Shown: positions 61,099 through 64,000 of the stretch, in pieces
How the letters are laid out: each line of letters begins with the position of its first letter
How positions within the stretch are numbered: position 1 is the first letter of the stretch
DNA from: Salegentibacter lacus
GTDB lineage: Bacteria > Bacteroidota > Bacteroidia > Flavobacteriales > Flavobacteriaceae
Length of the DNA: 64,000 bases
Direction of reading: 5' to 3'
Assembly: GCF_020164555.1 (NCBI RefSeq)
Contig: NZ_JAIQZB010000005.1
Location: 1 to 64,000 of the forward strand
Translations under genes and position numbers: made by a program
The notes under the pieces: generated by a model
What the model was told of the DNA's origin: nothing
What the model saw: the letters and a program-made list of their open reading frames with translations, nothing else
Database searches by the model: none

Positions 61099-62661
61099 CT
61101 ACTTAGCAATATTAACCGCCCTGGTTTCCCGAATTACAGTTACTTTAACCTGTCCCGGGTAAGTCATATCGGTTTGGATCTTTTGAGAAATTTCAAAAGA
61201 AAGATTTGAAGCTTTTTCGTCGTTTACTTTTTCGCTTTCTACAATTACGCGAAGTTCACGTCCTGCCTGGATAGCGTAAGCTTTTTTCACACCACCAAAC
61301 CCGAAGGCGATCTCTTCAAGATCCTTTAAACGCTGAATATAAGAATCGAGCACCTGTCTTCTCGCTCCCGGTCTGGCACCACTAATAGCATCACAAACCT
61401 GAACAATAGGTGAAAGCAAGGAGGTCATCTCTATCTCGTCGTGGTGAGCACCAATAGCATTACAAACTTCCGGTTTTTCACCGTGCTTTTCGGCCCATTG
61501 CATTCCAAGGATTGCGTGAGGTACTTCTGTTTCGGTTTCCGGCACTTTACCAATATCGTGGAGTAATCCGGCACGTTTGGCGAGTTTAGGGTTAATTCCA
61601 AGCTCTGAAGCCATCACACCACAAAGTTTTGCAACTTCTCTGGAGTGCTGTAGTAAGTTTTGTCCGTAAGACGAACGGTATTTCATTCGGCCTACTAATT
61701 TGATCAATTCAGGGTTTAGACCGTGAATTCCGAGATCGATTACCGTACGTTTTCCAATATCTATAATTTCCTCGTCAATTTGCTTACGGGTTTTCTTAAC
61801 GATTTCTTCAATTCTGGCCGGGTGAATTCTACCATCAGTTACCAGTTTGTGTAAAGATAAACGGGCAACTTCTCTCCTAACAGAATCAAAACAAGAAAGG
61901 ATAATAGCTTCAGGAGTATCATCTACAATAATTTCCACACCGGTTGCAGCTTCAATAGCCCTTATGTTTCTACCTTCACGGCCAATAATCCTACCCTTAA
62001 CATCATCGCTTTCCAGGTTGAAAACCGAAACGCAATTCTCAATAGCTTCTTCAGTTCCTATTCGCTGAATGGTATTGATTATAATTTTCTTTGCTTCCTG
62101 CTGTGCAGTTAGTTTAGCTTCTTCTATAGTATCTTGAATTAAGGCCATTGCATCTGTCCTGGCACTGTCTTTAAGCGCTTCAGAGAGTTGTGCTTTAGCT
62201 TCATCGGCAGAAAGTCCTGATATTACTTCTAATTGCTGAATCTGGCTATTATGAAGTTTATCGATTTCTTCCTGTTTCTTTTCAAGATATTCAACACGAT
62301 GATTATAATCGGCTAACTTATCTTCAAATTCTTTATTGAGTTTCTTGTTTTTGGAAAGTTCTCCAGAAACCTGAGATTCTTTATCCCTGATGCGTTTTTC
62401 GGCATCGTTCATTTTCTTATCCCGGTTTAGAATTACCTTCTCATGCTCCGATTTTAATTCAATGAACTTCTCTTTGGCCTGAAGAATCTTATCTTTCTTG
62501 ATACTCTCTCCTTCAGATTTAGCTTCTTTAAGAATATTTGCCGCCGTTTTCTTAGCGTTCTTGATGGTTTGTGAAGCTCTTTTTCGCTCCAATTGCTTGG
62601 CAATAGCAAATCCTATTGCTGTCCCAATAACCCCGATAACTATATTTAATAATATTTCCAT
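61099..62661 (-). CDS. rny: Ribonuclease Y
   Basis: 520 residues. N-terminal membrane anchor ([16 protein letters not shown]), long coiled coil (about 30-200), KH domain ([20 protein letters not shown]) and HD domain ([16 protein letters not shown], catalytic His-Asp). Membrane-tethered endonuclease that starts mRNA decay. The order zapA, then a 6S-like RNA, then rny is all on the minus strand. Confidence 0.96.
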
Positions 62662-62678
62662 ATTTAAAATTTATGTAT

Positions 62679-62858
62679 AAAAAAAGCCTGTATTAGATGG
62701 GTTTTTGGATTAAACTCCTTAAAAACAAGTTTAGGGCTAACAAGCTGATCAAGAATCCGCTCATCCCGAAAAATCGGGAGCGGCGCGCTTTTACAACTTA
62801 GACTCACCCTCTTTAAAGAATCTCTGTTGAGTTTATCAAAATATCACTAATACAGGCA
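62679..62858 (-). ncRNA. Candidate 6S-type regulatory RNA (6S-Flavo-like)
   Basis: Read 5' to 3' on the minus strand from 62858: a perfect 11-bp closing stem pairs 62847-62857 with 62686-62696, followed by a run of U. Inside, 62829-62835 pairs with 62711-62717 and an apical hairpin uses 62757-62783. Open stretches between the stems leave a central bubble, and the 5' side holds tgatattttgat, which resembles a TAnnTTTG -7 element. Total about 180 nt, typical of 6S RNA, which traps housekeeping RNA polymerase by mimicking an open promoter. Position between zapA and rny recalls ssrS beside zapA in Escherichia coli. No clear promoter seen, so it may be processed from the zapA transcript. Confidence 0.6.
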
Positions 62859-62887
62859 GTAACCTTTATTTATTTAAAGAACGCTCA

Positions 62888-63178
62888 TTACACCAAATGC
62901 TTCTGCAGTAAATCGTTAAGTGATTTAAGTTTATCTTCTGCTTTAAGCGTATCGGTAGATCTATCTATATCTTTTTGCTCGGTTTGGGCGGCAAATTGCA
63001 AAGCGCACATCGCCAATACATCCTGCTTATCCCTTACGGCATAACTTTGCTCAAATTGCTTAATCATAGCCTCAATCTTCTTCGCTGCCTTGCGTAAACC
63101 TTCTTCCTGTTGTGGATTAATGGTTAAAGGATACACACGATCTGCAATAGAAAGTTTTATTTTTAGTTTATCGGCCAT
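62888..63178 (-). CDS. zapA: Cell division protein ZapA
   Basis: 96 residues. N-terminal beta part (DKLKIKLSIADRVYPLTINP) and a long C-terminal helix (LRKAAKKIEAMIKQFEQSYA, VRDKQDVLAMCALQFAAQTE) as in ZapA, which bundles FtsZ filaments at the division site. Follows the coiled-coil gene by 5 bases and is likely co-transcribed. Confidence 0.93.
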   Translation of the reverse strand: MADKLKIKLSIADRVYPLTINPQQEEGLRKAAKKIEAMIKQFEQSYAVRDKQDVLAMCALQFAAQTEQKDIDRSTDTLKAEDKLKSLNDLLQKHLV

Positions 63179-63183
63179 ATTTA

Positions 63184-63474
63184 TTATTCAGATAATTGAA
63201 CAATGCATTGATCAATTTCTCTTATTAAGCTGTTTAATTTAAGCTTAGTTTCTGTTTTGAATTCGGTACTGCCCAGCATTGCATTGGCGGCTTTGAGGTT
63301 TTGAACTTCCTGATTGGAACGTTCAAGTTGTTGAGTTAATCTAAGATTTTCCTCTTTAACAGCTGTCATTTCTTCCTCTATAGAACTTTGATTCTGCTTT
63401 AAATTTTCATATTTATGAAGCAATTTACTAATCCTATTTTCAAGGCTATCAACGATTTCTGTCAATTCACTCAT
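63184..63474 (-). CDS. Small coiled-coil protein (ZapB-like) upstream of zapA
   Basis: 96 residues, nearly all coiled coil from about 5 to 75 (SELTEIVDSLENRISKLLHK, AVKEENLRLTQQLERSNQEV). Overall it resembles ZapB-type division proteins, but with no diagnostic motif. Position just before zapA supports a role in division. The longest frame begins at 63588, but this would lie upstream of the promoter; the ATG at 63474 is used. Confidence 0.82.
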   Translation of the reverse strand: MSELTEIVDSLENRISKLLHKYENLKQNQSSIEEEMTAVKEENLRLTQQLERSNQEVQNLKAANAMLGSTEFKTETKLKLNSLIREIDQCIVQLSE

Positions 63475-63501: not shown

Positions 63502-63532
63502 CAAAGTTAACATTCGCGCTCTAATATGCCAA
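63502..63532 (-). promoter_or_regulatory. Promoter of the coiled-coil-zapA unit
   Basis: On the minus strand TTG (63532-63530), 20-base spacer, TAACTTTG (63509-63502), with predicted start near 63495, 21 bases before the ATG. A second TACATTTG lies at 63488-63481. Confidence 0.65.
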
Positions 63533-63658: not shown

Positions 63659-64000
63659 ATGAAATCTATTTTAACGCTTATTCTCTTATTTGTTGGCACT
63701 GCCATCTTCGCTCAGGCGCAGCTTCCGCAGGATTATTTTCAGAAACCACTGGAAGTTCCGCTAGTTCTTTCAGGTACTTTTGGAGAACTGCGTTCCAATC
63801 ATTTTCACAGTGGTTTAGATATCAAAACCCAGCAAAGGCAGGGACTAAATGTGGTCGCTTCAGCTAAAGGATATGTAAGCCGAATCAATATTCAGCATTA
63901 CGGCTACGGAAAAGCGCTTTATGTGCAGCATCCTAACGGCTATACCACAGTGTACGCCCATTTAAAAGAATTTTCACCTGAAATTGAAGCCTATATCAAG
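63659..64000 (+). CDS. M23-family metallopeptidase, 3' end outside window
   Basis: 114 residues visible; frame is still open at base 64000. Signal peptide (KSILTLILLFVGTAIFAQAQ) then the start of an M23/LytM-type domain with the first zinc motif HxGxD in NHFHSGLDIKTQQRQGLNVV and HPNGYTTVYAHLKEF. Likely a periplasmic or surface murein endopeptidase. Divergent from the coiled-coil-zapA genes. Confidence 0.88.
   Translation, partial: MKSILTLILLFVGTAIFAQAQLPQDYFQKPLEVPLVLSGTFGELRSNHFHSGLDIKTQQRQGLNVVASAKGYVSRINIQHYGYGKALYVQHPNGYTTVYAHLKEFSPEIEAYIK

Follow-up and report, generated by a model that had tools for sequence, protein, structure and literature searches.

The window analysed here is a stretch of 64,000 nucleotides from the Salegentibacter lacus genome (Bacteroidota; Bacteroidia; Flavobacteriales; Flavobacteriaceae), positions 1 to 64,000 of contig NZ_JAIQZB010000005.1. 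Near its far end, a zapB-like gene, zapA, an RNA gene and rny follow one another on the minus strand, with the following features:

61099–62661, minus: rny, encoding RNase Y (Pfam RNase_Y_N, HD and KH_1), starting 17 nt after the U-run
62679–62857, minus: RNA of 179 nt, almost certainly 6S RNA, 5' end at about 62857, U-run end at 62679
62679–62685, minus: U7, which with the closing stem makes an end like that of an intrinsic terminator
62686–62696, minus: closing stem, 3' arm CUAAUACAGGC, pairing with 62857 to 62847
62712–62717, minus: inner helix, 3' arm GAGUUU, pairing with AAACUC
62718–62733, minus: central bubble, 3' strand UAAACUUGUUUUUAAG, which holds a conserved C-N-U-G-U
62812–62828, minus: central bubble, 5' strand, unpaired in the Rfam model and conserved, proposed template of a product RNA
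62829–62834, minus: inner helix, 5' arm AAACUC, which opens the near-invariant AAACUCAAC
62835–62846, minus: tgatattttgat, previously read as -7-like, its UUUG paired with the 3' strand
62847–62857, minus: closing stem, 5' arm GCCUGUAUUAG, pairing with 62696 to 62686
62872–62883, minus: boxA-like CGTTCTTTAAAT, between the zapA stop and 6S
62888–63178, minus: zapA (Pfam PF05164, E 1.1e-18)
63184–63474, minus: zapB-like gene, coiled-coil (Pfam ZapB scores 20.9 bits against a cutoff of 31.5)
63502–63532, minus: sigma-A-type promoter before zapB, by eye, with TTG at 63532–63530, a 20-nt spacer and TAACTTTG at 63509–63502

An earlier reading of the letters alone (the sequence-only reading) had placed a 6S-like RNA between zapA and rny, and Pfam identifies both of these genes. 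The zapB assignment rests on three protein profiles that we grew from loci of the order. No promoter is visible in the 17-nt gap before rny (62662–62678, minus strand). The zapB promoter lies in an intergenic region shared with a divergent gene that has a Peptidase_M23 domain (63659–64000, plus strand).

We scanned the 64 kb against 4227 Rfam families, and only RF01685 (6S-Flavo) exceeded its cutoff, at 62712–62832 on the minus strand (94.3 bits against a curated cutoff of 85, E 4.7e-15). A covariance-model search of this kind had been suggested as a check on the 6S reading, which the match supports together with the near-invariant segments and covarying helices described below. RF01685 has one match in the window's genome and none in 14 control genomes. 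Its flanks ACUCAAC and CUUGUUU...GGAGUUU are both present in the window alignment, and ACUCAAC (62832 to 62826) is 96–100% conserved per position across 64 loci of the order. At a loose threshold, Bacteroidales-1 (RF01693) gives a weak end-to-end match at 62679–62857 (22 bits against a cutoff of 60); a search of 62400–63200 up to E 10 gave 7 matches, none of them the general Rfam 6S model. On this homology, the RNA at 62857 to 62679 on the minus strand is almost certainly a 6S RNA of the 6S-Flavo family, a kind of RNA that binds RNA polymerase and holds it in check. The RNA itself is of a known kind and ordinary.

Two alignments, chosen to lower redundancy, underlie the comparisons: A1 holds 46 of the 104 RF01685 loci and A2 holds 100 loci. 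For A1, the stem ends of L047 were corrected by hand after wrong automatic placement, and the reverse-strand row of L233 (29.6 bits) was dropped from A2. The 46 A1 sequences gave a full-length covariance model, R1, which matches the window at 62680–62857 with 146.9 bits, the window being one of its source sequences. The sequence-only reading had named no strand. Because the plus strand also folds stably (z -4.8), the choice of strand follows homology and not fold energy; the plus strand was rejected as the RNA since the Rfam and R1 matches both lie on the minus strand.

The RNA has the general architecture of 6S, with a closing stem, a bubble, an apical stem-loop and a length of about 180 nt. 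Most of the structural description in the sequence-only reading holds: the closing stem of 11 bp is perfect, U7 follows it directly (62685 to 62679), the fold contains an apical hairpin, and the predicted length of about 180 nt compares with 179 nt. We placed the ends (62857 and 62679) by the covarying closing stem and the U-run. The 179-nt fold has an energy of -60.3 kcal/mol (z -5.9), and none of 200 dinucleotide shuffles was as stable. Among the 104 relatives the full RNA is 157–209 nt long, and nearly all have a T-rich tail.

Covariation over the 46 relatives in A1 underpins this structure. The outer (closing) helix is paired in 96.8% of cells, with 10 of 12 pairs changed on both sides, and the inner helix AAACUC/GAGUUU is paired in 97.5%, with a nearly invariant core. 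The upper helix (74–77) is paired in just 78.3%. Compensatory changes occur in 19 of 28 pairs, with a score of 0.44 against 0.20 in shuffles and 0.05–0.11 in slid versions. Taking the four helices together, 188 cells are changed on both sides (55 +/- 8 in shuffles), and pairing falls from 94% to 33–43% when the 3' partners are shifted by 1 to 3 columns. The RF01685 model has 108 positions, its ends are unpaired, and the closing stem and U-run lie outside it; the Rfam model of 6S-Flavo thus seems to miss a covarying closing stem.

The central open region stands with a qualification. It is open in the Rfam model and mostly open over 100 relatives, but in the window's minimum-energy fold a 6-bp helix spans part of it. 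Mean pairing probabilities of its two strands are 0.33 and 0.42 in the 100 relatives and 0.45 and 0.50 in the window. On the 3' strand, the C-N-U-G-U at 62729 to 62725 is conserved across 64 order loci (C 95%, U 100%, G 95%, U 89%).

R1 extends the family well into the order, matching 171 of 246 genomes, where RF01685 passes its cutoff in 19 and finds 104 at E 0.001; R1 E-values are rough, and an R1 match is no proof of function. Within the class it matches 111 of 395 genomes, 16 of these from the window's order. A search of the phylum gave 28 of 198, every match within the class, and is uninformative on other classes. R1 also matches 12 of the 16 genomes with RF01693 (three of the 12 being order genomes), at identical coordinates in 6 and overlapping coordinates in 6; of the other four, G275 has no R1 match and three are perhaps outside the R1 sample. 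These shared matches suggest that RF01685 and RF01693 are one RNA family in two Rfam entries.

The gene order zapB-zapA-6S-rny, on one strand, is present at all 104 RF01685 loci and at each of 20 more order loci matched by R1, though the loci are related and neither these linkage counts nor the motif counts below are independent events. Neighbours were examined at these 124 order loci, compared with 171 order genomes with an R1 match, and outside the order at 80 of 95 R1 matches and 4 loci matched by RF01693 only. Duplicate loci (L112/L141 and L119/L189) were each counted once. zapA adjoins 6S at 51 of the 84 distinct class loci outside the order, 49 of them with rny in the stretch examined. 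The other 33 have neither zapA nor rny in that stretch, an upper bound on unlinked loci since some are short stretches at contig ends.

We compared the sequence upstream of linked and unlinked 6S genes. In the 120 nt before linked 6S, the sigma-A -7 element TAnnTTTG occurs at 5 of 86 loci, 2 of 64 in the order (all of them linked) and 3 of 22 in the rest of the class, with shuffle means of 3.5 and 1.7. Before unlinked 6S it occurs at 9 of 14 loci (shuffle mean 1.4). The element is at chance level before linked 6S, and the linked gene therefore probably has no promoter of its own. Of 104 loci, 1 has TAnnTTTG between 6S and the rny start, and counting the 6S gene as part of the interval raises the number to 10. 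Within 150 nt of the zapB start it is found in 43 of 45 relatives (shuffle mean 7.5), these being the A1 loci except L085, which is cut by a contig end; the window counts among the two without it, its zapB start having been set by the script at an earlier ATG.

A different motif, GTTCTTT, precedes linked 6S at 57 of 86 loci within the same 120 nt (38 of 64 in the order and 19 of 22 in the class; shuffle means 0.5 and 0.3, with maxima of 2 and 2). At unlinked class loci it was found once in 14 (shuffle mean 0.3). In the 64 kb of the window, both strands counted, CGTTCTTTA occurs once, against 19 occurrences of the shorter GTTCTTT. Family by family among the 104 RF01685 loci, GTTCWTW lies within 70 nt of 6S in f1 (39/40), f7 (13/14), f15 (6/6), f3 (1/1), f10 (1/1) and f11 (1/2). 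Its absence from f5 (0/38) and f2 (0/2), generally with no TAnnTTTG instead (2/64 order loci), counts against the reading of the motif developed below. By eye, some f5 loci (e.g. L060 and L072) have a hairpin-like GGGAAAT...TTTCCC directly before 6S.

Genomes in which 6S lies elsewhere show what remains of the locus. All 30 such genomes have rny, 29 with zapA just upstream of it, and GTTCTTT occurs in none of the 29 zapA-rny gaps without 6S. A quick tree of 81 RNase Y proteins needs 5 changes between the linked and unlinked states, at least 2 of them forced by well-supported branches. We viewed 29 of the 33 unlinked loci, excluding 4 at contig edges. In a clade of families f47, f71, f81, f83 and f92, the relocated 6S has TAnnTTTG at -22 to -37 at 10 of 10 loci and no GTTCWTW. 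The other 16 relocated loci are mixed, 8 with TAnnTTTG at various distances and 2 with GTTCTTT. In f27 (L190, L205 and L207), 6S lies away from zapA and keeps GTTC[TA]TTGAAC 28–29 nt upstream; GTTCWTW is present at 3/3 of these loci and TAnnTTTG at none, as if the site belonged to 6S. The mixed loci outside the one clade and the f27 motif without zapA both count against an operon read through by means of boxA. At L105, the relocated 6S follows a gene judged DnaJ-like by eye.

The motif recurs in rRNA leaders of the lineage. Sixteen genomes had a 16S gene, two with leaders too short to use; GTTCTTT is present in 10 of the 14 leaders over 300 nt, a count without a shuffle control. The other four, which weigh against the boxA reading, have by eye GTTCAT (G138 and G079), GTTCGTTTG (G003) and nothing clear (G561). 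Ten more 16S genomes, also inspected by eye, have GTTCATT in both f1 genomes and two f5 genomes, GATCATTG in five f5 genomes (of eight f5 genomes viewed), and neither in one. The window's genome assembly has no 16S, and relatives of its family show GTTCAT forms. A purine follows GTTCTTT in 48 of 57 cases before 6S and 10 of 10 in 16S leaders, and in 25 of 86 elsewhere in the linked loci. In sequence, then, the motif before 6S is the rRNA-leader element of the lineage, GTTCTTT with the same following letters, and on this likeness it may well act as a boxA.

Other small RNAs served as controls. Upstream of rnpB, TAnnTTTG occurs at 25 of 30 loci and GTTCTTT at 3 of 30 (shuffle mean 0.3); upstream of tmRNA the counts are 21 of 28 and 9 of 28 (shuffle mean 0.7). 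Because GTTCTTT also stands before tmRNA and rnpB, the motif is not confined to 6S, and the controls are not clean. The nine tmRNA loci with the motif include L355, from the window's genome. The motif lies at -13 to -26 in eight of them and downstream of TAnnTTTG in all 7 loci that have both, and is perhaps another boxA before a small RNA.

The position of the motif could also be explained if 6S had its own promoter of an unrecognised type, with GTTCTTTA as an upstream element or activator site. Of the 38 order loci with the motif, 37 have it 15–39 nt ahead of the RNA, a promoter-like distance, and ssrS of E. coli has promoters of its own. However, the 19 linked class loci with the motif have it at 25 to 105 nt, the motif and its following letters match 16S leaders, and the usual -7 element is at chance level while rnpB shows it at 25 of 30 loci. 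We regard such a promoter as unlikely. A processing site for the 6S 5' end, in place of an antitermination signal, is a poorer explanation and quite unlikely: trimming would be needed if 6S is co-transcribed, and an RNase gene, rny, lies downstream, but the distance from motif to RNA end varies widely. The motif at 9 of 28 tmRNA genes is compatible with a processing site or with antitermination.

Taking family, structure, gene order and motif statistics together, we infer co-transcription, Nus binding, processing, polymerase binding and a product RNA. A zapB-zapA-6S operon with boxA-type antitermination, followed by processing to 6S, is the likely arrangement. 6S would be the untranslated third cistron of this operon, on a transcript starting at the sigma-A promoter before zapB. 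The boxA-like element after the zapA stop would be read as RNA by the NusB-S10 system, which would prevent early termination in the untranslated stretch, as it does in rRNA. The closing stem and U-run would terminate most transcripts, with read-through carrying rny, and the precursor would be trimmed to the 179-nt RNA. The central bubble would imitate an open promoter, hold sigma-A polymerase and template a product RNA that releases the polymerase. The 5' strand of the bubble is the proposed template, by analogy with E. coli, and the product RNA is predicted opposite C 62826 (invariant in 64 order loci), as GUUGAGUUUAUC. boxA mainly opposes Rho-dependent termination, which we count against the boxA model. 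A 6S RNA with two product-RNA classes is reported in B. thetaiotaomicron (PMC7366714), and a 6S transcript in F. psychrophilum (PMC9723704). There is perhaps an even chance that 6S, in much of the class, is carried without a promoter of its own in the zapBA cell-division operon and depends for its output on rRNA-type boxA antitermination. If so, the elongation of 6S would be controlled together with rRNA and its initiation together with cell division, and the supply of NusB or S10 would set the 6S level.

The promoter mimicry proposed here belongs to the central bubble, and the -7-like tgatattttgat lies outside it. The sequence-only reading had put this element in the open region; its letters are present (62846 to 62835), but UUUG (62840 to 62837) is paired, with covariation. 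Its pairing probability reaches 0.97 in the window, against an order average of 0.73. RNA positions 21 and 150 are paired at 49 of 64 order loci (GC 44, UA 3) and at 27 of 36 outside (GC 11, UA 9), and positions 20 and 151 at 57 of 63 and 28 of 36. Of the four UUUG pairs, the outermost two are weaker (32/47 and 34/44 in the order; 24/34 and 15/33 outside). All of these pairs lie outside the structure used to fit the alignment. The tgatattttgat segment is a helix beside a bulge and not an open region, and an open promoter mimic at this site was rejected, the segment being paired with compensatory changes.

TTTG at 62840 to 62837 might still be a promoter mimic of another sort, perhaps for a second product RNA made off the other strand. 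A scan of the 100 aligned RNAs for TAnnTTTG ranks the tgatattttgat site first both in the order (mean 3.9/6 over 57 rows, against 1.8 over all positions) and outside it (3.6/6 over 30 rows, against 1.7). The pairing and covariation just described stand against a mimic, if less so at the two outermost pairs, and the site is on the closing-stem side, which is downstream in the geometry of E. coli. Even with its top rank and the two product-RNA classes of B. thetaiotaomicron (PMC7366714), we find such a role for TTTG improbable. On the 3' strand, the window's UAAACUUG (62733 to 62726) departs from TAnnTTTG at a single position. Speaking against it, 95% of order loci have C at RNA position 129, and among all positions scanned its place comes third in the order and seventh outside; we make no claim for it. 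That the hairpin is a mere terminator or attenuator between zapA and rny and not 6S, as its terminator-like stem with U7 and the near absence of TAnnTTTG before rny (1/104 loci) might suggest, can be set aside with great confidence in view of the RF01685 match above cutoff, the near-invariant unpaired segments and the fact that other families carry this RNA apart from zapA and rny.

RF01685 was described as 6S-Flavo by Weinberg 2010 (PMC2864571), and the core of the window's RNA (62712–62832) matches it end to end above the curated cutoff. RF01693, suggested as the 6S of Bacteroidales, differs in its setting: the clade of f47, f71, f81, f83 and f92 has the RNA apart from zapA and with a TAnnTTTG of its own. 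Linkage of zapB, zapA and ssrS is published for beta- and gamma-proteobacteria (PMC7641849) and is now extended to another phylum. The sequence-only reading had likened the locus to ssrS near zapA in E. coli; that parallel is real, since the E. coli annotation gives zapA-ssrS-fau, and the linkage reaches far beyond one genome. In both species the RNA gene lies directly downstream of zapA, on the same strand and ahead of another gene, which is fau in E. coli and rny in the window. A search of 1000 nt around ssrS in E. coli found no [GT][CT]TCTTT.

In the literature searched we found no earlier report of this gene setting, a boxA-like leader in a zapBA operon, nor a paper joining boxA, 6S RNA and antitermination; this does not establish absence from print. 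The setting gives a testable account of 6S production in a phylum with an unusual sigma-A, and it points to a possible role of boxA upstream of small non-coding RNAs, a class that PMC5725501, by its own account, left out of its boxA survey. The boxA consensus given there for rRNA leaders and suhB, GYTCTTTAANA, is gamma-proteobacterial; GTTCTTTAA resembles it, and GTTCTTTAAAT of the window differs in the last letter. The boxA sites described in PMC5725501 precede rRNA or protein genes, unlike the site described here, which precedes a small RNA.
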